Positions 3,291 through 56,272 of a stretch of DNA of 64,000 nucleotides are shown here, piece after piece. Source of the DNA: Desulfoscipio geothermicus DSM 3669 (GTDB lineage: Bacteria > Bacillota > Desulfotomaculia > Desulfotomaculales > Desulfallaceae); NCBI RefSeq assembly GCF_900115975.1, contig NZ_FOYM01000001.1, forward strand, positions 62,001 to 126,000, in the 5' to 3' direction. Both the position numbers and the translations under genes were made by a program. Below the pieces are notes generated by a model. It made no database searches, had not been told where the DNA came from, and saw only the letters and a program-made list of their open reading frames with translations. The first letter of the stretch is position 1; every line of letters begins with the position of its first letter.

Positions 3291-4748
3291 TTAACCCTCA
3301 AACACTATGGTTTTAATGATCACCGGCACTACCGTGTCTTCCATTATTGGCTCGCCTATATCAATGTAGTCGCCGTCGGCAACATTCAGCTGGTCCAGAC
3401 ATATAATGCCGGCTTCATCGCCCAGGATGGCAGCCAACATTTGCCCCATTACTTTGGCGCAATCCTCTTCCAAAATCAGTACCAGGGGCTGGCCTGACTT
3501 TACGTAGTTCCTGGTTGCCGCGGCAACGGCCGCGGCTATGCCCTGGAGCTTTTTAAACCCCGCGCCGTCCATACCCCTCAATGCTATGGCAACGGGTTCC
3601 TTATAGCCTCCCAACCAGTAAGGGCGCATTTGCTTCGCCAGGCCACCGGCCAGGTCCCCGGGTAGTGGCGGTATGGCGCCGGGGAACGGTTTAACCACAG
3701 GCACGTTACGCAGCGGAAGAATGCCCCGGGACACTTTGATCGTGCTGCCGCTGAGATTGAGTGTGTGGGCGCCGGCTCCGATTACAGTTGCGCGAATAGT
3801 TTCCCTGGGCTTTACCAGCTGCCGGCTTTCCCCGCTAAAGGCTTCCCTTAAAGCCTCGCCCAGGAACGGGCCGATATCTCCGTACCTGCTGCCCTCGCGC
3901 ACATTGCAGATTTCCTCGCCGGAATATACGAAGTCGGATACCCCGCCTGAAAAGGTAACAATGTGTATTGGATAGTCAAGCCTTAGCGGCGGCCCCATCA
4001 TCAAACACCGGCTTACCTGCGGCAACGGGCGGCTGCTCAATAGAGACTTGATTGCCCCGGCCATGACGCTCGTTACGGCACGGACCTGATCCACAGAAAT
4101 TATGTCGCCCGTATCAAGTTCCATCCCTGACTCTTCCAGAACAACCCTGCCGGCCGGGGTAATGTAGGCCAACCTTTCACCCCCGGGTTCGATTTCAATA
4201 AGCCGTCCACCGATATTTATACAGGTGGCGTCAACCGGTCGCCCTTCCTCGAAAACAGCCAGGTTGGATGTTCCCCCGCCCACGTCGATGTTTAAAACAT
4301 TCCGGTGCAGTTCTGAGGACAGTGCCGCAGCCCCGGCTCCCCGGCCGGCAATTATGGATTCCAGCAGCGGCCCCGCGGTAGCCACCACGAAATTGCCGGC
4401 AAATCCCGACAGATCGTTAAGCAGCCCCCTGGCGTTTTCCTTTCTGGCGGTTTCACCCGTGATTATAACCGCGCCGGTATCCACCCGGTCCGGTGTTATG
4501 CCCGCCTGGTGATATTCCCGGGATATAATCTCGGTAACAGCCTGGGTATCAATCAATTCGCGGCTTGCCAGCGGCGTGAAGTGAATACCGCTGCGGTAGA
4601 TCACCTCTTTGCCCGTTATGGCCATCCGGGGGACCGCCGAACCCGGCGCTGTATTGCATACCGTCAGCCTGCTGACCACCATTTGGGTTGTTGTGGTACC
4701 CACGTCAATACCTATGCTTGTAATCTCTTTGCTGTTTTTATTCTTCAC
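3291..4748 (-). CDS. eutA: ethanolamine ammonia-lyase reactivating factor EutA
   Basis: ATPase chaperone that exchanges damaged cobalamin out of ethanolamine ammonia-lyase so the enzyme can restart. 485 residues, near the family size. The actin/Hsp70-like phosphate 1 motif IGIDVGTTTTQMV is near residue 12, and a second nucleotide motif (NIDVGGGTSNLAV) lies near 150. GTG start at 4748, 8 bases after a GGGGGG site. Last gene of the minus-strand eut operon, 18 bases after eutC, the enzyme it serves. Confidence 0.95.
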   Translation of the reverse strand: MKNKNSKEITSIGIDVGTTTTQMVVSRLTVCNTAPGSAVPRMAITGKEVIYRSGIHFTPLASRELIDTQAVTEIISREYHQAGITPDRVDTGAVIITGETARKENARGLLNDLSGFAGNFVVATAGPLLESIIAGRGAGAAALSSELHRNVLNIDVGGGTSNLAVFEEGRPVDATCINIGGRLIEIEPGGERLAYITPAGRVVLEESGMELDTGDIISVDQVRAVTSVMAGAIKSLLSSRPLPQVSRCLMMGPPLRLDYPIHIVTFSGGVSDFVYSGEEICNVREGSRYGDIGPFLGEALREAFSGESRQLVKPRETIRATVIGAGAHTLNLSGSTIKVSRGILPLRNVPVVKPFPGAIPPLPGDLAGGLAKQMRPYWLGGYKEPVAIALRGMDGAGFKKLQGIAAAVAAATRNYVKSGQPLVLILEEDCAKVMGQMLAAILGDEAGIICLDQLNVADGDYIDIGEPIMEDTVVPVIIKTIVFEG

Positions 4749-4766: not shown

Positions 4767-5711
4767 TTACTGCCGGGTAAGCTTCACCCCGCTAGCTTTA
4801 GCATCATAAATTTTCTTGACCACCGTGGCCAGGTGCGCGCCTGCCTCCGCCGGGGGCATTCCTCCTTTGTGGATATTTGAAACAACCATATGATCGGCAA
4901 CAACGGTATCCGGCCCCGGCTTGTATACCATGTAAGCGCTCATGCTTTCCGATGTTCCCAAACCGGGCCTTTCACCGACAAGGAGCACAACCACTTCAGC
5001 TTCCAAAGCCCGGCCGATAACGTCCATGATGTCAACCCGGCCGAATTTAACCAATATATCGCGGCCGGTTTTCAGGTTGTAGGAGGCCAGTCCCTGTTTC
5101 AAGGCCGGTAAAATATCCGCCAGGTTGGCTTCCACAGCCGTGGTGCTCAAGCCGTCGGCGATGATGATTTGCACATCGGGTTTGGCGGGGCATTCCCGGC
5201 GTATTTTCTCCAGCTCCTCCTCCGGAAGTGTTTTTCCAAGGTCCGGTCGCGTCAGGTATTCATCCTGGTCCTTGACCGCGCTCTGCACCCGCACCAGGTC
5301 AAACCCGGCCGGAGCATCCTCGCTGATTTCTTTAAAGACCGCATCCTGCGCAGCGGCGTGGTCGGCTCTGAACCGGAGCAGGGTTCTGGTGAGGGGTCGC
5401 GTGCCGCAGCGCCATACCCCTATCCGCGCCGGCGTGGATTGTTTGAAGTATTCCAGGGCGGCACGATCGCACGGCTCGGGCACGAGGATTTCCTTTTGCA
5501 GGTCCACTGCCGAAAGGTCTTCCAAATCTTCATCGCCTGCTTCATTATTAGGAGCACATACATTTTCAGGTGAAACGGCTTGCTGTTTGGCTTGCTGTTT
5601 AATACCGGGTTCCGGTTTGCTTTCAGGTTTTTCCTGTTCCGCTTCCTTATCCCCAACTGTCATTTGACTTATAACAGCCTGCACAATTTTCCTTATCTGG
5701 TCTTCATGCAT
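4767..5711 (-). CDS. eutC: ethanolamine ammonia-lyase small subunit
   Basis: Small subunit of the adenosylcobalamin-dependent ethanolamine ammonia-lyase, which converts ethanolamine to acetaldehyde and ammonia. 314 residues: a low-complexity linker rich in Glu, Lys, Pro and Gln at about 20-70, then the conserved EutC core (LTRPDLGKTL, ADGLSTTAVEAN, ERPGLGTSESMSAY). ATG 5711 is preferred because AGGAGG lies 8 bases upstream; the GTG at 5720 is inside that ribosome site. The start overlaps the eutB stop, consistent with coupled synthesis of a 1:1 complex. Confidence 0.95.
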   Translation of the reverse strand: MHEDQIRKIVQAVISQMTVGDKEAEQEKPESKPEPGIKQQAKQQAVSPENVCAPNNEAGDEDLEDLSAVDLQKEILVPEPCDRAALEYFKQSTPARIGVWRCGTRPLTRTLLRFRADHAAAQDAVFKEISEDAPAGFDLVRVQSAVKDQDEYLTRPDLGKTLPEEELEKIRRECPAKPDVQIIIADGLSTTAVEANLADILPALKQGLASYNLKTGRDILVKFGRVDIMDVIGRALEAEVVVLLVGERPGLGTSESMSAYMVYKPGPDTVVADHMVVSNIHKGGMPPAEAGAHLATVVKKIYDAKASGVKLTRQ

Positions 5712-7089
5712 TGACCGCACCTCCTTTCCCGGTAAAGAAAGAAGCGTCTCCGGCGCGGGAAGTCAGGCGGCCGTTTTCCATCAGGCCCATTTTTTCCAAC
5801 CATTTTTCAAAAGCGGGTAGCGGCCTCATCCCCGTCACTTGCCTCAAGCTGGCTATATCATGAAAGCTGGTACACTGGTAATTCAGCATTACGTCATCCC
5901 CCATGGGGATGCCCATGAAGTAATTCACTCCTGCGGTAGTTAACAGCACTGCCAGGTTTTCTATGTCGTTTTGGTCGGCCTTCATGTGGTTTGTATAGCA
6001 GGCATCCACCCCCATGGGAACACCGGTCAACTTGCCCATGAAATGGTCTTCCAGCCCGGCGCGTATCACCTGCTTGGCGTCGTACAGGTACTCGGGCCCG
6101 ATAAAACCTACCACCGTATTAACCAGGAAAGGTTCAAACTGCCTGGCCAAGCCGTAACAACGGGCTTCCAGCGTCACCTGGTCCACCCCGTGGTGGGCGT
6201 CGGAGGAAAGTTCCGAACCCTGGCCTGTCTCAAAATACATAACATTGGGACCTGTTCCCCTGCCGAATTTAAGCGCTGCCTCCCTGGCCTCGCGGAGCAT
6301 GGGCACGTCGATGCCGAAGGCTTCGTTACCCTTTTGGGTGCCCGCCAGGCTCTGGAAAATACAGTCCGCGGGGGCGCCTTTCTCCACCGCCTTCATCTGG
6401 GTGGTAACATGCGCCAGCACACACACCTGGGTGGGGATTTGCCATTCCTGCACAAAGTTATAGATGGTCTCCAGCGACCTGGTCGTTGCGACCACGTTAT
6501 CCTCAACCGGGTTCAAACCTATCACCGCATCGCCCACACCGTAAGACAAACCTTCCCGTATGGAACTCAGGATGCCTTCCGGGCTGTCGGTGGTGTGGTT
6601 CGGCTGCAGCCTCGCCGCCAGGCAACCGGGCAGTCCGATAGTGGTATTACAGTGCGCGGTAACCGGGATTTTCCTGGCGCCGCAAATAAGATCCATATTG
6701 CTCATTATTTTGGCTACCGCGGCCACCATCTCGCTGGTCAGGCCCCTGCTTATTCTCCTGATGTCCGCCTCGCCGGTTTCATCACTCAGGATGTACTCGC
6801 GCAACTGGGCCACGGTCCACCCCTTTATCTCGTTATAGGCCGGCCGGTTCAGGCTGTCGTAAATAATTCTGGTAACTTCGTCTTTTTCATACGGCACAGC
6901 CGGGTTATTATAGATGTCTTCCAGGGTCAATTCGCTCAATACTATTTTGGCGGCCACCCGTTCGGCGGCGGATTGGGCGGCAATGCCCGCCAATATGTCG
7001 CCTGATTTTTCCTCGTTGGCCTTGGCCATTACCTCCCGCACATCCCGAAACGAGAACACTTGGCCAAAGAGCTTTGTCTTGAGCCTCAT
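5704..7089 (-). CDS. eutB: ethanolamine ammonia-lyase large subunit
   Basis: Catalytic TIM-barrel subunit that binds ethanolamine and, with EutC, adenosylcobalamin. 461 residues, the usual length (about 453-460). Conserved stretches include KIMSNMDLICGARKIPV near 150, GLPGCLAARLQPNHTTD near 175 and DACYTNHMKADQND near 365. ATG start with a GGAGAGGG ribosome site. A 10-bp stem-loop at 7139-7172 separates it from the permease gene. No microcompartment shell gene or EutE/EutG is nearby, so the fate of acetaldehyde is not shown. Confidence 0.97.
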   Translation of the reverse strand: MRLKTKLFGQVFSFRDVREVMAKANEEKSGDILAGIAAQSAAERVAAKIVLSELTLEDIYNNPAVPYEKDEVTRIIYDSLNRPAYNEIKGWTVAQLREYILSDETGEADIRRISRGLTSEMVAAVAKIMSNMDLICGARKIPVTAHCNTTIGLPGCLAARLQPNHTTDSPEGILSSIREGLSYGVGDAVIGLNPVEDNVVATTRSLETIYNFVQEWQIPTQVCVLAHVTTQMKAVEKGAPADCIFQSLAGTQKGNEAFGIDVPMLREAREAALKFGRGTGPNVMYFETGQGSELSSDAHHGVDQVTLEARCYGLARQFEPFLVNTVVGFIGPEYLYDAKQVIRAGLEDHFMGKLTGVPMGVDACYTNHMKADQNDIENLAVLLTTAGVNYFMGIPMGDDVMLNYQCTSFHDIASLRQVTGMRPLPAFEKWLEKMGLMENGRLTSRAGDASFFTGKGGAVNA

Positions 7090-7179: not shown

Positions 7180-8586
7180 CTAGGCCAGTTCTTCTTCCGC
7201 CTTGGCGACAATGGCAAATTCCTCTTCCGGGGCTTTCGCCACCAGGTGGTGCCGGCTGTAAAATGCAAAATAGGCAACAAACACAAGATAAACCAATGCC
7301 GTCCAAAGTATTACGTTGGGCGCGTAGAAGAAACCGGCAAACAGCGCGATAACCGCCAGTATGAGCGCCACGTAAGGAGTTACGGGATAACCGGGTACTT
7401 TGTACGGCCTTTTCATATTGGGTTCCCTGTTCCTTAAAACGATGGCGGAAAGCATCATCATGATGTAAGAAATCACGGCTCCGAATACCGCAATTTGAAT
7501 CAGGATATCGCCGTTACCGATAATGGCTGACACTACACCGATAATACCGCCGATGATAATTGCGACGTGCGGCGTATGGAAGCGTGACGTGAGTGAGAGC
7601 CATTTGGGCAGGTAACCGGCCCTCGACAGGGCAAATACGGCCCTGCCCGCGCCAAAGATAATTCCGTTGAAACTGGCCACCAGGCCTGCCAGGCCGATAA
7701 TGCCCAGCCCCATAATGGCCCAGTGTCCCTGTCCCAGAACAGCGGCTACAGCCTCGGGCAACGGGCTGTCGGAAGTGCTCATGGCGACGGCGCCGCCCGT
7801 GCCCGCAGCCAGGAACAGCACTGCGAACGCAGTTATTACCAGAGTGGAAATGGAGGTAATAAGACCTTTGGGCATATCCTTTGCGGGGTCTTTGCATTCC
7901 TCCGATACCAAAGGAAGACCTTCAATCGCCAGGAAAAACCATATGGCATAGGGAATGGCGGCCCAGATGCCGAATAATCCAAAGGGTAGGAACTCACTGT
8001 TCCCGTTGACCGGCGCTATTTCCAAAACCTTGCTGATGTCAAAATGAGGAATGGTATATATTGCAAAAATAATCAGACCGATCACAGCAATAACTGTAAC
8101 CGTTAATTCAAAGGTTAGGGTTGACTTTGCCCCCAGAGTGTTCATAATCACGAACAGCAAGAATATTCCCACAACCACCAACCACTTGGGAGTTCCCGGA
8201 ATCAAAAACGCAATATAGCCCGCTATGCCGTTGGCAATAACGGCCGGCGCCAAAATGTATTCCAACACCACTCCGATACCGGCAAGGTATCCGCCCCATG
8301 GTCCCATGGCTTTCCTTGCGAAAGCGTAAGCCCCGCCTGAAAAGGGTATGGCGGTTGATAATTCCGCGATTGTAAGACACATGGTAGTGTACATGATAGC
8401 CATTAAGATGGTGGCAATGAACAGACCCCAGAAACCGCCCGCGCCTATTCCGAAGTTCCACCCGAAGTAGTCGCCGGAAATAACATAACCCACACCCAAT
8501 CCCCATAAAAGAAGTGGTCCCGCAAATCTTTTCAACTGCCGCTTCTCTAAATAATTTTCACCGTTGCCGTTGGTCATATTACTCAT
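7180..8586 (-). CDS. APC-superfamily ethanolamine permease
   Basis: Twelve-helix amino acid-polyamine-organocation transporter of 468 residues, ending in a short acidic cytoplasmic tail. The N-terminal membrane motif (GVGYVISGDYFGWNFG) and the FSGGAYAFARKAMGPWGGY segment are characteristic of the ethanolamine permease branch. Together with its place between the eut regulators and eutBCA, this makes ethanolamine the likely substrate. ATG start with GGAGGTG upstream. The leader holds a strong terminator-type hairpin (8671-8721). Confidence 0.9.
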   Translation of the reverse strand: MSNMTNGNGENYLEKRQLKRFAGPLLLWGLGVGYVISGDYFGWNFGIGAGGFWGLFIATILMAIMYTTMCLTIAELSTAIPFSGGAYAFARKAMGPWGGYLAGIGVVLEYILAPAVIANGIAGYIAFLIPGTPKWLVVVGIFLLFVIMNTLGAKSTLTFELTVTVIAVIGLIIFAIYTIPHFDISKVLEIAPVNGNSEFLPFGLFGIWAAIPYAIWFFLAIEGLPLVSEECKDPAKDMPKGLITSISTLVITAFAVLFLAAGTGGAVAMSTSDSPLPEAVAAVLGQGHWAIMGLGIIGLAGLVASFNGIIFGAGRAVFALSRAGYLPKWLSLTSRFHTPHVAIIIGGIIGVVSAIIGNGDILIQIAVFGAVISYIMMMLSAIVLRNREPNMKRPYKVPGYPVTPYVALILAVIALFAGFFYAPNVILWTALVYLVFVAYFAFYSRHHLVAKAPEEEFAIVAKAEEELA

Positions 8587-8738: not shown

Positions 8739-9215
8739 CTATTTTTTAAAACCGGCGCCATTGGTGTTTTTGAGTTTTGCCTGCCTGATATCCCGGTTCA
8801 GGGTTTCTTTGAGCTCCGCCTTTTTGCTTTTTAATGAAATAATATCTTGAAAGCGTGCCCAGGCAACGCGTATAGCCGGTTCCAGTTCCCTTTCGGTCAC
8901 CGGCTTGGTAAGGTAAGCCATTACACCGGCATCCAGCGCCCTTTTTACCAGTTCGTCCTCGTTATATGCCGTCAACAATAAAACTCCGCAGATTTTTTGC
9001 CCGGTTACCAGTTTGGCCACTTTTATGCCATCCATTTTATCCATCTTTATATCAAGGATGGCCAAATCCGGCCGCAGCTTTTGAACGAGTTCCAGCGCCG
9101 TTGCCCCGTTATTGGCTTCCCCGACCACTTTATGACCCTGCTCGGCAAGCATTTCCTTAAGGTCCATGCGGGTAAGGATTTCATCATCCGCCACTATAAC
9201 ACGCAGAGACTTCAT
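8739..9215 (-). CDS. response regulator, receiver plus short coil, no ANTAR domain
   Basis: About 158 residues. The receiver domain covers residues 1-120: acidic pair ADDE near 10, phospho-acceptor in LAILDIKMDKMDG near 54, LLTAYN, and the KPVT lysine near 104. The tail (ISLKSKKAELKETLNRDIRQAK) looks like the helix that normally precedes an ANTAR RNA-binding domain, but the protein stops there. ATG 9215 is preferred over upstream codons because AGGGGG lies 9 bases before it. It starts 13 bases after the sensor kinase gene, so it is probably a phosphorylation partner, phosphate sink or dimer partner of the full-length regulator. Confidence 0.88.
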   Translation of the reverse strand: MKSLRVIVADDEILTRMDLKEMLAEQGHKVVGEANNGATALELVQKLRPDLAILDIKMDKMDGIKVAKLVTGQKICGVLLLTAYNEDELVKRALDAGVMAYLTKPVTERELEPAIRVAWARFQDIISLKSKKAELKETLNRDIRQAKLKNTNGAGFKK

Positions 9216-9228
9216 CTTATACGGCCCC

Positions 9229-10665
9229 CTATTTTGGGAATTCAATTTCCACCACGGCACCGTCATCGTTATACATCAATATGTTTCCCTCAAGCGTTTC
9301 GGTAACCAGTGCCCGGGTGATTTGCAACCCCAAATTAGCGCTTGTCTCCTGGTCGAAATCCGGCGGGAACCCCCTACCGTTATCCCTGATTACTATCTTT
9401 ACGTTGGACATATGGTTTTCTATAAACACTGATATCTTACCGGCAGAGTTTTCCGGAAAAGCATACTTAATTGAATTTTGCATAATTTCATTAACTATTA
9501 TGGCTGTGGGTGTCGCCTGGTCCGAGTGGATGAAGATTTCTTCACCGCTGACTTCCACCGCTATTTCCTGCCCGGGCAGCAGCATGTTCTCCATTAGTAT
9601 TTGCCCGATACGGCGGATGCACTCCCGTAAGCCTACAACCTCCGGAGACTCTCTGGAAAACATTTCGTGCACCAGGGCAATGCAACGAATACGATTAATA
9701 CTTTCTTGAAAGGCCACTCTGGTTTCCTCTGACCGCACCCGTCTCATCTGCAGCCGCATCAAACTGGCAATTGTCTGGAGGTTGTTTTTAACCCTGTGAT
9801 GTATTTCCTTGATTACCGCGGATTTGGCCATGAGTTGGCGGTCTTTTTTGCGCAGCTCCGTTATATCTCTTAAAAGGTATACTTTGCCGCGCAACTCGCC
9901 TTCAGCCAAAATCGGCAATGTTCTAACCAGCAAGACGCGGTTTTTGACCCGCACTTCATCGGCATCGGAGTCATTGTCAAACAACTGGCTCAGGCCCGGT
10001 ACCCGTTCGGTAAGCTGTCTGACGGTTATACCGACAAAATTCACATCCTTGGAGTACTCCCGCAACAGATCGTGGGCAACGCGGTTGGCATAGGAGATTC
10101 TGCCGCCCGCATCTGCTATAAAAAGTGCATCGTGAATAAGAGTAGGCAGCACTTCCTCCACATTGGCCAGGTTCAACAGGGTATCGGTAAGTTTCTGGGT
10201 GGTTTGAGAGAGAAACTCCACGGTTTTTTGCTGGTATACCTGGTACGAATTATCCCTTTCCATGATCAACACGGCAATTAGCCGGTTCTTGGCATTTTTA
10301 ATCGGAGTTACCGTCTGAATTATGGGAACGCCCTCCTGGCTCAAACCCTGTACACCAGGTGTGGGCTCGCCTGTTTTGAAGGTTTGGAACACCGCCGGCT
10401 CATTACAGCTAAAAGCATATTCACCCACCACGCTGCCTTGATACAGGGACGGCGCAGTGCCGGGCTTGGCCTCGGCCACCACTATGGCGGCCCTGGAGTC
10501 CTTCGTCAATACATCAATAAAAATATCGGCCCCGGCCAGGTCTGCAAAATACTGCAGGTTATAGCGGAGATTTTCGAGAATTGCAATATCTTCATCGCTT
10601 ATGCTGCTTCTCTCCCGGCAAAGATCCCTCAGAACTTGCGCGGAATCCATTACATCGACTGACAA
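9229..10665 (-). CDS. eutW: ethanolamine-sensing type histidine kinase, EutW-like
   Basis: Soluble sensor kinase of 478 residues. An N-terminal sensor (about 1-165) resembles the H_kinase_N domain of EutW. A PAS-like domain follows (about 180-275, with NRVAHDLL). Then comes an HWE/HisKA_2 dimerisation motif, EIHHRVKNNLQTIASL near 290, with the phospho-acceptor His. The C-terminus is a HATPase_c domain (NEIMQNSIKYAF, DNGRGFP, GLQITRALV). TTG 10665 has GGTGGGTG upstream; ATG 10650 is an alternative. Its mRNA leader carries the ANTAR antitermination element. Sensing of ethanolamine is inferred from the operon. Confidence 0.9.
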   Translation of the reverse strand: MSVDVMDSAQVLRDLCRERSSISDEDIAILENLRYNLQYFADLAGADIFIDVLTKDSRAAIVVAEAKPGTAPSLYQGSVVGEYAFSCNEPAVFQTFKTGEPTPGVQGLSQEGVPIIQTVTPIKNAKNRLIAVLIMERDNSYQVYQQKTVEFLSQTTQKLTDTLLNLANVEEVLPTLIHDALFIADAGGRISYANRVAHDLLREYSKDVNFVGITVRQLTERVPGLSQLFDNDSDADEVRVKNRVLLVRTLPILAEGELRGKVYLLRDITELRKKDRQLMAKSAVIKEIHHRVKNNLQTIASLMRLQMRRVRSEETRVAFQESINRIRCIALVHEMFSRESPEVVGLRECIRRIGQILMENMLLPGQEIAVEVSGEEIFIHSDQATPTAIIVNEIMQNSIKYAFPENSAGKISVFIENHMSNVKIVIRDNGRGFPPDFDQETSANLGLQITRALVTETLEGNILMYNDDGAVVEIEFPK

Positions 10666-10780
10666 AGCACTTCACCCACCCAAGATTTTCGGTCAAATGC
10701 GTATACACTGCTTTAGTTCCGTCAAACCGCTGCCGCCTTGGTGGCCACATCCTTTCCACAGAAAATCCCCTTTAAAAACA

Positions 10781-10860
10781 AATAAAAGCCCGCTTAGGCA
10801 CGAAATGTTCTTTCGCACCCATTCAGGCTTCTTTGCCGTACTCAGGCTTCTTTGCTGTAC
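10781..10860 (-). promoter_or_regulatory. ANTAR dual-hairpin antitermination element with overlapping terminator
   Basis: On the minus strand two tandem hairpins carry the same hexaloop AAAGAA (A at loop position 1, G at 4): P1 is AGC-AAAGAA-GCC at 10845-10856 and P2 is GGC-AAAGAA-GCC at 10826-10837. They match the ANTAR-binding consensus AGCAANGRRGC. A terminator follows at 10781-10829: its base pairs AGCC(T), the 3' arm of P2, with GGGCT, and its upper stem is GGTGCGAAA/TTTCGTGCC, ending in TTTTATTT. P2 and the terminator cannot form together, the known EutV mechanism. It controls the kinase and everything downstream of it in the operon. Confidence 0.9.
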
Positions 10861-10940
10861 CGGCTGTGCCGGCTTATTCTTTTTTTATATAATCACGATT
10901 CTACATAATTCTACAAAATTTTTGTTAATCCTTCTCGCCG

Positions 10941-10970: not shown

Positions 10971-11531
10971 TCAGTTTGTTAATAAAAAATCCTTGGCCAC
11001 TTCGCTTATTTTGCGCTGCTGGTTCATACTTGTCCTGCGCAACATCCTGTAGGCCTCCTCCTCGCTGCAACCAGTCTTTTTTTGTAACATGGATTTGGTT
11101 TGGGCGATTAACGACCTGTCAGCCACCGCAGCGGATAAGCCTTTGATATCCGTGCGAAGTTTCCGCATTTCCAAAAACCTCTGGCGGGCAACTTCAAATG
11201 CCGGTTTTAATTTTTTCTTTTCCACCGGTTTTACCAAATAACCTAGGGCTCCACTGGCCATTGCCTTCTCGATGGTCCGGGGATCGCTGTAGGACGTAAG
11301 CAGCACCACCGGAGCCAACATTTCCCCGGAAATCATCCTTGTTGCAGCCAAACCGTTGGTGCCCGGCATTTTAATGTCCATCAACACAATATCAGGATGA
11401 TATTTTTTAACTAATTCTATGGCTGTCGCCCCGTCACGGCATTCCCCCAAAACCCGGCACCCGATTTCCTCCAGCATTCGTTTAATGTCCATACGAATGA
11501 TCGGCTCGTCTTCCGCCAGTACAACTCGCAT
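10971..11531 (-). CDS. eutV: ANTAR-domain response regulator, EutV-like antiterminator
   Basis: About 186 residues. An N-terminal receiver (AEDEP near 9, phospho-acceptor in VLMDIKMPG near 54, KPVE lysine near 104) is joined by a coil to a complete C-terminal ANTAR domain (AQTKSMLQKKTGCSEEEAYRM, then LRRTSMNQQRK). In the EutVW family the phosphorylated dimer binds paired hexaloop hairpins in nascent RNA and prevents a terminator from forming. Exactly such a site lies 3' of this gene at 10781-10860. ATG 11531 is chosen because GGGGGTGG precedes it. It is the first gene of the operon, so it can be made before its own target site is reached. Confidence 0.92.
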   Translation of the reverse strand: MRVVLAEDEPIIRMDIKRMLEEIGCRVLGECRDGATAIELVKKYHPDIVLMDIKMPGTNGLAATRMISGEMLAPVVLLTSYSDPRTIEKAMASGALGYLVKPVEKKKLKPAFEVARQRFLEMRKLRTDIKGLSAAVADRSLIAQTKSMLQKKTGCSEEEAYRMLRRTSMNQQRKISEVAKDFLLTN

Positions 11532-11741
11532 ATTTCCACCCCCGAAAAAACACGGACAGACCAGGATACCCGATACCCCGTCCACCCAATAAATAATATT
11601 TTCTATAAAATTATTTTTCTATTAACTATATATATATTCCTGCTGCCAATTCCACCCAGCCCGCAAAAAAGAGTCTACCCTGTTTAATGCCACAGTGCGT
11701 TTAATGTTGCTCGAAACACCCCTGGCTGTGATTTTCCCGGT

Positions 11742-20472: not shown

Positions 20473-20567
20473 TTTATCGCGGCAACCTGGCAGTCATACC
20501 CTCAAGGGCTACAGACCCATGGCTTTGCGCCCCACCCTTTCGAGTGGTTTGCCTTTGGCACAATAAA
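20473..20567 (-). promoter_or_regulatory. cyclic-di-GMP-I (GEMM) riboswitch aptamer
   Basis: The minus strand reads GGCAAACCACTCGAAAGGG, then TGGGGCGCAAAGCCATGGGTC, and, after a variable stem, TGACTGCCAGGTTGCCG. These are the hallmark blocks of GEMM-I: GAAA tetraloop, the CGCAAAGCC ligand core and the closing GGTTGCCG. P1 is TTTATTG paired with CGATAAA. A terminator lies downstream, then an HD-GYP gene. A TATAAT box at 20575-20580 (minus) is placed to start transcription at the aptamer. Confidence 0.92.
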
Positions 20568-36653: not shown

Positions 36654-37113
36654 TAAAATATATATAAGCCCGCCGCACGCCCCACAGGGACGAAAGCGAC
36701 GGGCTACTTCCGCGGTACCACCCTGGTTGACCCGCTGTGGCAGCGGGTCCACTCTTGCAAGGTACGGGAAAGAATTCCCCGGCGGCAATCGCGTGCAATT
36801 TAAAAAGCCTCTCATCCCCAAGGGACGAGAGGCTGTGCCACCGCGTTACCACCCTAGTTGACCCGTTCTTATTCAAAACAGGCCCACTTGATAAGAGTAC
36901 GGGAAAAACTTCCGATACCCCCTTCCCTATAACGTGGGAAGCATACGTCCTGGCCTACTTACCTGCAATGTGGTTTCAGCCGGCTCCTCCGGAGAGAACT
37001 TCAGATGGTCATGACCCGGGAACGCTTCCAGTCAACGACGTCCCCTCCCTGGGGGCCTGTTTCCAGCCTACTTTTCTCCTTCACTGGATTTGATGCGCTT
37101 TATTGATTATGTT
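36654..37113 (-). promoter_or_regulatory. T-box leader with one stem I (UUC specifier) and two antiterminator/terminator modules
   Basis: On the minus strand the T-box sequence AGGGTGGTAACGCGG (36841-36855) and a second, AGGGTGGTACCGCGG (36710-36724), are each followed by a terminator: AGCCTCTC/GAGAGGCT with TTTTTAAA (36800-36834) and AGCCCGTCGC/GCGGCGGGCT (36667-36705). Stem I begins near 37093 (AGTGAAGGAGAAAAGTAGG). In GAAGTTCTCTCCGGAG the codon placed one base before CTCCGGAG is TTC (36996-36998), indicating tRNA-Phe. Stem III-like sequence precedes both modules, but only the first has a stem I. Confidence 0.92.
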
Positions 37114-53198: not shown

Positions 53199-53225
53199 GA
53201 AAGTCACAAAGTAAAAAATCATACA

Positions 53226-53395
53226 TTCCAGGTGCCCGCAAGGGAGAATAGGGAACCGGGTGAGAATCCCGGGCGGTCCCGCCACTGTAACCGGTAGCCC
53301 ACCTATAAAACCACCGTTTGTCGTCCGTTTGGCAAGGCAGGCGGGAAGGAAGGTACGGGCGCTATCCCGGAAGCCAGGAGACCTGCCTGGAAATG
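53226..53395 (+). promoter_or_regulatory. cobalamin riboswitch aptamer
   Basis: Contains the conserved blocks GGGAACCGGGTGAGAATCCC, GCGGTCCCGCCACTGTAACC and AGCCAGGAGACCTGCCTG (the B12 box), in the right order and spacing. It should bind adenosyl- or another cobalamin and repress the operon that makes the lower ligand. Confidence 0.96.
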
Positions 53396-53447
53396 TCTCG
53401 CACAGCCTCGTGGATAAGGGCGGTGTCCGGGTTACATGGATGATGGA

Positions 53448-53558: not shown

Positions 53559-53666
53559 GCTCTTTCATGATCATCCAGCAACCGGCTTTTATACCGGCCC
53601 GATAGGCGGCCAAAGCGGATTGCGTCGGTTTTGACCCAAAGATTACTACCAAAAGGAGGGTTTTTA

Positions 53667-54965
53667 ATGAGTCAATTAAACAGCGCCCTGAAGGGGGAAA
53701 TCACCCCGGAAATGGAACAGGTGGCGCTAGCGGAGCAAGTTACACCGGAATTTATCCGGCAGGGGATAGCTGAGGGTACCGTTGTCATTCCCTGCAATAT
53801 CAAACGCATTAACAGCGTCCCGGTGGGAATAGGCGCAGGCCTGCGAACCAAGGTGAGCGCCAGCGTGGGCCTGTACGGAAACGACCCGGACATCGGCCTT
53901 GAATTGAAAAAAGTCAAGGCCGCCCTGGCCGCAGGTACGGATGCCATCATGGATCTCAGCGTTTGCGGAGATATCGATGCCATGCGCCGTGAAACCCTCG
54001 CCGCCACCCCCAAGCCGGTGGGAACACTGCCCCTGTACCAAGCCCTGGCGGAAGCGGCAGAAAAATATAACGCGCCGGTAAAGATGACGGTTGAAGATTT
54101 ATTCGCCGTAATTGAACGCCAGGCGGCCGACGGGGTTGATTTTCTGGCCCTGCACTGCGGCACTACCATGAGTGTGGTGGAACGGGCCAGGCAAGAAGGC
54201 AGAATAGATCCCCTGGTAAGTTACGGCGGTTCCCATCTGATCGGGTGGATGATTTACAACCAGTCGGAAAACCCGTTGTATGAACATTATGACCGGGTAC
54301 TGGAAATTGCCCGCAAGTACGATGCGACAATCAGCCTGGCCGACGGCATGCGGCCGGGGTGTCTGGCCGATTCCCTGGACGGCGCCCAGGTGGAAGAGCT
54401 GGTGATTTTGGGCGAACTGGTCAGACGGGCCAGGGAAGCAGGGGTGCAAATAATGGTCAAGGGGCCGGGCCACGTACCTTTAAACCGGATTGAGGCAACC
54501 GTTGCGCTGCAAAAAAGCCTTTGCAAAGGCGCGCCCTACTTTGTCTTCGGCCCAGTGGTAACCGACATAGCCGCCGGTTATGACCATATCAGCGCCGCCA
54601 TCGGAGGCGCCATAGCGGCCTGGGCGGGGGCCGAGTTCATCTGCTACGTGACGGCTGCCGAACACATCGGGCTTCCCGATGCGGATCAGGTGCATGAAGG
54701 GGTGATTGCGGCACGGATCGCCGCCCACGCCGCTGACTTGGCCAAAGGTCTGAAGGGAGCCGAAGATTGGGACCTGCAATTGTCCCGGGCCAGGAAGGAA
54801 CTGGACTGGGAGAGACAAATCACCCTGGCCGTAGACCCGGAGCGGGCCGGGCAATTGAGAAAAGACCGCACCGGGGAATCCTCGGCGGCCTGCGCCATGT
54901 GCGGCAAGTACTGCGCCATGAAAGTGGTGTCCGAATACCTGGGCACCGCCAGGCAAAGTTGTTAA
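53667..54965 (+). CDS. bzaA: BzaA, ThiC-like 5-hydroxybenzimidazole synthase component
   Basis: 432 residues, a ThiC paralogue of the radical SAM type. With BzaB it rearranges aminoimidazole ribotide to 5-hydroxybenzimidazole, the first step of anaerobic lower-ligand synthesis. The barrel core shows VGIGAGLRTKVSASVG near 60, DAIMDLSVCGDID near 95, LHCGTTMSVVER near 165 and VKGPGHVPLN near 265. The C-terminal cluster motif is CAMCGKYC (CX2CX3C), one residue shorter than the CX2CX4C of ThiC. ATG 53667 with AAAGGAGGG. Choice of A rather than B is by gene order only. Confidence 0.9.
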   Translation: MSQLNSALKGEITPEMEQVALAEQVTPEFIRQGIAEGTVVIPCNIKRINSVPVGIGAGLRTKVSASVGLYGNDPDIGLELKKVKAALAAGTDAIMDLSVCGDIDAMRRETLAATPKPVGTLPLYQALAEAAEKYNAPVKMTVEDLFAVIERQAADGVDFLALHCGTTMSVVERARQEGRIDPLVSYGGSHLIGWMIYNQSENPLYEHYDRVLEIARKYDATISLADGMRPGCLADSLDGAQVEELVILGELVRRAREAGVQIMVKGPGHVPLNRIEATVALQKSLCKGAPYFVFGPVVTDIAAGYDHISAAIGGAIAAWAGAEFICYVTAAEHIGLPDADQVHEGVIAARIAAHAADLAKGLKGAEDWDLQLSRARKELDWERQITLAVDPERAGQLRKDRTGESSAACAMCGKYCAMKVVSEYLGTARQSC

Positions 54966-54991
54966 AAGTCGAAAAAGAAAGGGTGACTGGA

Positions 54992-56272
54992 ATGACTCAG
55001 GTATTGGCGGCCCGCGCGGGCAAAATCACTCCGGAGATGGAAATGGTGGCTTCCCGGGAGCAATTGGACGTCGAGTTCATCCGGGAGGGAGTGGCATCGG
55101 GTAAAATTGTGATTCCCAAGAACATTAACCGCAAAGAGTTTAATTGCTGCGGCATCGGACAGGGCCTCAGGATAAAAGTGAACGCCCTGATCGGCACATC
55201 CAGCGACCGGGACCAGATAGAGATGGAAGAGCGCAAGCTGGCCATCGCCCAGGAAGCCGGGTGTGACGCCGTTATGGATTTGAGCACCGGCGGGGACATC
55301 GACGGGATGCGCCGGCAGACACTGGCCCTGGCCAATGTGCCGGTGGGCGGCGTGCCCATTTACCAGTGCGCCATTGAAGCCATTGAAAAACGGGGCAGCG
55401 TGGTGGCCATGACCGAAGATGACATGTTTGCCGCCGTGGAAAAACAAGCGGCGGAAGGCTTGGATTTCATGGCCATCCACTGCGCCCTGAATTTTGATGT
55501 CATCAAGCGCCTCAAAAATACCGGGCGGGTTACGGACGTGGTCAGTAGGGGCGGCGCTTTTCTGACGGGGTGGATGCTGCACAACAACAGGGAAAACCCT
55601 CTTTACGAACAGTTTGATCGCCTGTTAGAGATTTTGAAAAAATATGACGTGACGTTGAGCCTGGGAGACGCCATCCGGCCCGGCTCCACCGCCGATTCGC
55701 TGGACGGGGCGCAGCTGCAGGGGATGATCATAGCCGGCGAACTGGTGGCCAGGGCCCACGCGGCCGGGGTGCAGGTGATGGTGGAAGGTCCCGGACACGT
55801 TCCCATGCACCATGTGAAATCGACGATGCTGCTGCAGAAACGTTTATGCCACGGCGCCCCCTATTTTATCCTGGGCACCCTGGCCACCGACGTGGCGCCG
55901 GGTTACGATCACATAACCTCGGCCATCGGCGGGGCCATAGCCGGGGCGGCCGGCGCCGATTTTATCTGCTATGTAACCCCGGCGGAGCATCTCGGGCTGC
56001 CCACGGAACAGGACGTCAAGGAAGGGGTTGTCGCCGCCCGGATTGCCGCCCACGCGGCGGACCTGGCCAGGGGCAATAAACAGGCCCTGGCCCGGGATTT
56101 GCAAATGGCCCGCGCCAGGGTCGCGCTGGACCTGGACAGGCAAATCAGCCTTTCCATTGATCCCGGGAAAATAAAGGCGGCGCGTGAGGGTGGAGATGAC
56201 AGCCGGCACTGTGCTGTTTGCGGACCCGACTGTGCCGCGCAGGTTGCGGCTAAATATTTTGGCATTGACTGA
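54992..56272 (+). CDS. bzaB: BzaB, ThiC-like 5-hydroxybenzimidazole synthase component
   Basis: 426 residues, clearly paralogous to BzaA along its length (GIGQGLRIKVNALIG, DAVMDLSTGGDIDGMRRQ, VEGPGHVPMHHVKST) and ending in CAVCGPDC (CX2CX3C). In Moorella and Eubacterium both paralogues are needed for 5-hydroxybenzimidazole, while a single BzaF does it elsewhere. ATG 54992 with AAGGGTGA upstream; 26 bases after bzaA. Confidence 0.9.
   Translation: MTQVLAARAGKITPEMEMVASREQLDVEFIREGVASGKIVIPKNINRKEFNCCGIGQGLRIKVNALIGTSSDRDQIEMEERKLAIAQEAGCDAVMDLSTGGDIDGMRRQTLALANVPVGGVPIYQCAIEAIEKRGSVVAMTEDDMFAAVEKQAAEGLDFMAIHCALNFDVIKRLKNTGRVTDVVSRGGAFLTGWMLHNNRENPLYEQFDRLLEILKKYDVTLSLGDAIRPGSTADSLDGAQLQGMIIAGELVARAHAAGVQVMVEGPGHVPMHHVKSTMLLQKRLCHGAPYFILGTLATDVAPGYDHITSAIGGAIAGAAGADFICYVTPAEHLGLPTEQDVKEGVVAARIAAHAADLARGNKQALARDLQMARARVALDLDRQISLSIDPGKIKAAREGGDDSRHCAVCGPDCAAQVAAKYFGID

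Follow-up and report, generated by a model that had tools for sequence, protein, structure and literature searches.

A probable ANTAR-controlled attenuator in the ethanolamine operon of Desulfoscipio geothermicus with a conserved second hexaloop and a degenerate first hairpin

The antitermination mechanism of ANTAR regulators is already known from EutV of Enterococcus, and the ethanolamine (eut) operon of Desulfoscipio geothermicus raises the question of whether a switch of this kind lies between its regulator and kinase genes and, if so, whether it works through two hairpins or essentially one. From the 64,000-nucleotide stretch analysed here (the window) and a comparison across genomes, we favor a model, to which we assign a probability of about 0.8, in which the site is an ANTAR-controlled transcription attenuator that acts on the second hairpin (P2), the canonical first hairpin (P1) having decayed in this lineage. 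What is new here is a known type of switch whose first gripping hairpin is degenerate, rebuilt or missing in the window and its close relatives.

The operon is on the minus strand, where a 305-base gap separates the ANTAR regulator gene (11585-10971) from the kinase gene (10665-9229). Gene calls and Pfam domains define the following genes:

10971-11585, minus strand: EutV-like response regulator, receiver plus ANTAR (Pfam Response_reg 2.5e-26, ANTAR 2.3e-16)
9229-10665, minus strand: EutW-like sensor kinase of the PdtaS/HisKA_2 type (Pfam GAF_PdtaS, HisKA_2 and HATPase domains)
8739-9266, minus strand: receiver-only response regulator without an ANTAR domain (Pfam Response_reg only; orthologues in 5 relatives)
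7180-8586, minus strand: APC-family permease, probably an ethanolamine permease (Eat-like; Pfam AA_permease_2)
5704-7089, minus strand: EutB, ethanolamine ammonia-lyase large subunit (Pfam EutB 2.3e-220)
4767-5720, minus strand: EutC, ethanolamine ammonia-lyase small subunit (Pfam EutC 3.2e-83)
3291-4748, minus strand: EutA, lyase reactivase (Pfam EutA 2.3e-180)

An earlier note on this DNA had given the order as regulator, switch, kinase, permease and lyase, which is correct; the genes that it named are all present, and it had missed the receiver-only gene that follows the kinase and precedes the permease (9266-8739). The interval from the eutV-like gene to the window leader yielded no clear sigma-A promoter; in another genome, G004, a promoter-like match (TTGTCA-17-TACTAT) can be seen by eye upstream of the leader. 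Upstream of the window leader lies a 10-nt tandem direct repeat, TGTAGAAT-TA-TGTAGAAT (10898-10920), with the similar TGTCGAATAATGTAGTAT in G025 and TGTCGAA in G077, which resembles Spo0A boxes or an extended -10 promoter. A GntR-operator-like palindrome, AAATTGTATACATTT, is found upstream of the leader in G048 and G074 (L085/L124, L129/L158) and is absent from the window. Downstream, the interval that in the window separates terminator and kinase is occupied by shell and eutP-like genes in G025 and G077. A candidate relic of an eutS-like shell gene in the window (10660-10760, minus strand; VATKAAAV ... LTENLGW) was rejected, its tblastn score of 17.3 bits lying below that of the best shuffle (22.7) and hence not significant.

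The transcript of the gap between regulator and kinase reads ...GCCGGCACAGCCGGUACAGCAAAGAAGCCUGAGUACGGCAAAGAAGCCUGAAUGGGUGCGAAAGAACAUUUCGUGCCUAAGCGGGCUUUUAUUUGUUUUU and contains two AAAGAA loops (10853-10848 and 10834-10829, minus strand) whose starts are 19 nt apart. Its elements, in order of transcription, are:

10859-10873, minus strand: stable GC hairpin GCCGGC-ACA-GCCGGU immediately before P1, in every predicted fold
10823-10860, minus strand: 19-nt tandem duplication, two copies of GTAC[A/G]GCAAAGAAGCCTGA (TRF period 19, 2.0 copies, 94% match)
10843-10857, minus strand: P1-like hairpin CAGC[AAAGAA]GC(C)UG, with A1 and G4 in the loop, a weak stem and a bulged C
10826-10837, minus strand: P2 hairpin GGC[AAAGAA]GCC, a canonical ANTAR hexaloop (A1, G4; stem of at least 3 bp)
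10774-10832, minus strand: intrinsic terminator with U-rich tail (stem 10832-10784, 9 + 11 bp, then UUUUAUUUGUUUUU)

The 106-nt leader folds at -42.5 kcal/mol compared with -26.7 +/- 3.1 for 200 dinucleotide shuffles (z -5.10), none of which folds as well. That the second hairpin and the terminator share bases within 10781-10860, as had been proposed, was borne out: AGAAGCC, made up of the P2 3' strand and a portion of the P2 loop, is common to P2 and the terminator 5' arm (sequences AGAAGCCTG/CGGGCTTTT). In folds of progressively longer transcripts the P2 closing pair has a probability of 0.71-0.93 before the terminator 3' arm emerges and of ~0.02 or less afterwards. Because P2 collapses once this arm has been made, these folds support the mutually exclusive folding that had earlier been read by eye.

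One could argue that this is a constitutive intergenic terminator that merely lowers downstream expression and that the hexaloop match is coincidental. The terminator is strong, and single GCAANGNNGC cores are indeed common, with 13 in the window and 16.8 expected; a loose scan for two hexaloops also throws up many chance matches in 64 kb, and stricter motif tests were used for this reason. Coincidence fits poorly, however, with the paired pattern GCAANGNNGC-N3-20-GCAANGNNGC, whose single occurrence in the 3.65-Mb genome is the window site (reversed control, 0), with the identity of the neighbours, an ANTAR gene and its kinase, or with the preservation of the P2 12-mer over a terminator in relatives whose leaders are otherwise dissimilar by eye, A1 and G4 being kept while N3 varies. 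We consider this explanation highly improbable. An Rfam search of the leader found no matching family and returned weak snoU54 and DnaX chance matches only. ANTAR-dependent antitermination of the ethanolamine operon is well supported at the level of sequence by the genes, by the overlap of P2 with the terminator and by the retention of both in four relatives.

The first hairpin of the window is the first copy of the 19-nt duplication of the P2 half. A single A/G difference between the copies breaks the third P1 pair, leaving two contiguous in-register pairs followed by A.C, or four pairs if a bulge is allowed. The stem is closed by GC in place of the AC/GU pairs that close canonical P1; its pairing probability ranges from 0.04 to 0.65, with the bulged form at 0.57-0.65 in some truncated transcripts. 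P1 and P2 are joined by a linker of 5 or 8 nt, with a loop-to-loop spacing of 19 nt. Assessed as a EutV-type dual-hexaloop element, the site thus has every computationally tested feature except a P1 stem of at least 3 bp, and the earlier claim that two hairpins match the EutV consensus holds for P2 and for the A1/G4 loop of P1 and fails for the P1 stem. Were this nonetheless a canonical dual-hairpin EutV site throughout, P1 and P2 would be bound successively and P1 would be essential, as in Enterococcus eutP. The two A1/G4 loops, the canonical 19-nt spacing and linker length, and the bulged P1 of some truncated transcripts are what such a site predicts; the two-pair stem, the missing AC/GU closure and an origin by tandem duplication are not.

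Comparison with other genomes bears on the same issue. The comparison set was drawn from loci found by kinase homology and from ANTAR sites of the window's own genome (G000), and includes every P2 hexaloop that overlaps a terminator, P1 not being demanded. A P1 with at least three contiguous pairs lies 17-28 nt upstream of P2 at 15 of 17 sites outside the eut lineage, among them glnA-linked sites of the own genome, and at none of the five eut leaders of the lineage (the window, G048, G074, G077 and G186), which share ancestry and are therefore not five independent events. Loop spacing at canonical sites is mostly 17-22 nt, with outliers at 27-28, and canonical P1 takes the form xxAC[AAnGnn]GUxx, the outer pairs of which covary (both sides changed in 12 of 72 cells, a level that 0 of 500 shuffles reached). 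A covariance model built from nine canonical sites, whose range is 30-45 bits, gives held-out canonical sites, two of them glnA-linked and from the own genome, 30.6-39.0 bits, but the lineage eut leaders only 15.4-19.5 bits, with the window at 17.3 (E 4.9 for the genome, rank 8). On this evidence we lean against a canonical arrangement with an essential P1, which we consider less likely than not.

P2 and its terminator are kept across the same leaders. The P2 12-mer GGCAAAGAAGCC is identical in G048, G074 and G186, each time with an overlapping terminator, and G077 has GGCAAUGAAGCC with the loop AAUGAA, a single loop change that keeps A1 and G4; its terminator has a C-G in place of the U-A/U.G pair. 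The element occupies the gap between ANTAR gene and kinase in G048 and G186. In G077 it again follows the ANTAR gene, but the next gene is of shell type; in G074 it precedes the kinase, the ANTAR gene not being next to it. A remnant of P1 is recognisable in G074 (GAC[AACGAU]GAUC), and that of G048 (GAC[AACCAU]GAC) has lost G4. Since the canonical first hairpin has decayed in this lineage, P2 stands out as the recognition element that is conserved. The duplication in the window species has placed a second, weak P2-like hexaloop at normal P1 spacing, where it probably serves as a surrogate P1.

Conservation has its limits. The leader of G025, which has a eutV-like gene, contains a strong terminator and no recognisable P2 hexaloop, and the P2-like loop of G004, GAAGAA, has lost A1; the two ANTAR genes of G004, its only ones, lie on one contig away from the eut locus. 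An open frame in G004 (L126 4410-6449) joins most of the EutW-like kinase to the C-terminal half of a permease, reflecting either a deletion fusion or an assembly error. The position of the switch also differs among genomes: it follows kinase and regulator in G190, G333 and G340 and precedes the kinase in G279. Class searches around G186 and G279 yielded zero further leaders, and a genome scan with the window ANTAR protein brought up relatives mainly from Actinobacteria and Streptomyces.

The closest solved relative of the window regulator is EutV (6WSH/6WW6, 1.1e-42), and alignment to this E. faecalis protein indicates that the hexaloop-contacting residues R142, K149, E160, Y164, R168, M172 and N173 are all kept. 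In EutV, R142, K149, E160, Y164 and M172 secure the flipped G4 and the methionine plug, and K143 and K147 of one chain contact the P2 RNA that is bound by its partner chain (PMC8934654). The window regulator differs from EutV by K143S, K147Q, R175Q and R177K. K143 and G150 are found in all nine other aligned ANTARs and in none of the five from the lineage, and in this sample of five related proteins their apparent loss parallels that of P1. The designation of the site as a known dual-hairpin element is therefore apt for P2 and the terminator and does not extend to a first hairpin that is degenerate and unconserved in the lineage, or to an ANTAR altered at positions 143 and 150.

A conserved companion of the switch is the receiver without an ANTAR domain, which directly follows the kinase in all six genomes with a permease-type operon (G000, G025, G048, G074, G077 and G186), the G074 copy being broken near its end. 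The aspartate, threonine and lysine expected in an active receiver are retained in alignment, as is the beginning of the coiled coil. An origin by recent truncation of the adjacent ANTAR protein was considered and rejected, because the receiver-only proteins form an orthologous group of their own (95/93 support), separate from that of the ANTAR proteins. They may act as a putative phosphate sink, decoy or dimer partner.

These findings invite the idea that the altered ANTAR acts on P2 alone, perhaps with the receiver-only protein as dimer partner, and that the window duplication is a neutral accident. Retention of P2 and terminator without a canonical P1 in G048, G074, G077 and G186, the distribution of K143 and G150, the receiver-only orthologue in six of six genomes and the binding of isolated hexaloops by EutV (PMC8934654) all fit. 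Set against this, five leaders of common ancestry are few, degenerate P1 remnants such as that of G074 may still work, the in-vitro model requires two hexaloops for antitermination, and G462 has a receiver-only gene alongside canonical dual sites, so that we regard strict action on P2 alone as unlikely. About as doubtful is a fuller evolutionary scenario in which eut antitermination of this Firmicute lineage shifted to essentially one hexaloop as P1 was lost, the ANTAR co-evolved by losing K143 and G150, the receiver-only paralogue encoded behind the switch came to tune or partner the regulator, and the window duplication is now rebuilding a second hexaloop.

How would an attenuator acting on P2 control the operon? 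The genes, the loops, their overlap with the terminator, the exclusive folding, the retention of P2 with its terminator and the loss of a canonical P1 come from computation on the sequences. By analogy with EutV/EutW, from which ligand, phosphotransfer, RNA binding and readthrough are taken, we envision that without a signal, polymerase arriving from the eutV-like gene or a nearby promoter would meet the terminator at 10832-10784 and mostly stop, keeping kinase, permease and lyase low while basal readthrough supplies some kinase. Ethanolamine would activate the EutW-like kinase and lead to phosphorylation of the ANTAR regulator, which would grip the emerging P2 hexaloop GGC[AAAGAA]GCC, perhaps aided by the duplicated loop. 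With AGAAGCC locked up, the terminator would fail to form and transcription would continue through the genes for kinase, receiver-only protein, permease and EutBCA. A kinase encoded downstream of the switch that it controls implies positive feedback, which basal readthrough would prime. Induction in E. faecalis drops when P1 is deleted, and for this reason a leader whose P1 is poor might fail to respond.

The site resembles the EutV/EutW sites of E. faecalis (the eutP, eutG, eutS and eutA leaders; Ramesh 2012, PMC3369931) in its ANTAR regulator and EutW-type kinase, its downstream ethanolamine genes, its A1/G4 hexaloop, its P2 over the terminator 5' arm and its linker of 5 or 8 nt, compared with 5-12 nt (PMC3369931). 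It differs from them in that P1 has no AC/GU-closed stem, the switch is placed after the regulator gene and before the kinase gene, and a receiver-only protein is present; in addition, no EutX-like sponge was found in the window. Single-hexaloop ANTAR targets have been proposed (the EutX extra loop and mycobacterial stem-loops; PMC8934654) and share with the window site a minimal binding unit of one good hexaloop, but the window hexaloop belongs to a eut operon and is coupled to an intrinsic terminator. That study redefined the minimal ANTAR target as one hexaloop and left open the reach of single hexaloops, while its linker-extension assays argue that both loops are needed in the terminator-coupled eut setting (PMC8934654).

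Canonical sites exist in the same genome. Dual-hairpin ANTAR sites on C55 (72541-72576, 74814-74849) and C53 (18401-18432, 19021-19054) adjoin glutamine synthetase genes and precede an ANTAR gene, consistent with an ANTAR-type nitrogen regulon. These glnA-linked sites and the Desulfotomaculum nitrogen sites (PMC3369931) share with the eut leader a P2 of the type GC[AAnGnn]GC over a terminator; the two C55 sites differ from it in a perfect, AC/GU-closed P1 of 5-7 bp and score 38-39 bits compared with 17.3. The leader of an asparagine synthase gene (L127 13840-14100; C55, ~81.8-82.1 kb), near two ANTAR genes and glnA, has the P2-type CGGC[AATGTC]GCCC over a terminator of 12 bp. The hairpin ahead of this P2 is long and has a loop of 5 nt (AGGGA), which makes the leader a second site in this genome with a non-canonical P1.

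The window contains further regulatory RNAs at Rfam gathering thresholds: a c-di-GMP-I-GGC riboswitch (20477-20562, minus strand) upstream of an HD-domain-type gene, a T-box leader (36818-37093, minus strand) and a cobalamin riboswitch (53214-53404, plus strand) preceding a ThiC-like gene. An AdoCbl-riboswitch sponge of the EutX/Rli55 type at the latter was considered and rejected, since covariance model R1 finds no ANTAR site nearby. Behind this riboswitch lie two ThiC-like genes in tandem, together with a CobS-like gene (53631-56272), a cluster that resembles an anaerobic lower-ligand (bza-type) B12 operon and that could be a putative supplier of the EutBC cofactor. Nothing found in the window supports B12 regulation of the eut operon.

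Natural eut terminators in which P2 and terminator are kept and the first hairpin is lost or rebuilt represent a test case for single-hexaloop antitermination. This question is directly testable, because the matched regulators are altered at an RNA-contacting lysine and the same genome offers canonical two-hairpin sites as internal controls. Finally, the placement of the kinase behind its own switch, together with a conserved receiver that lacks an ANTAR domain, suggests a feedback design undescribed for Enterococcus in the EutV papers cited here.
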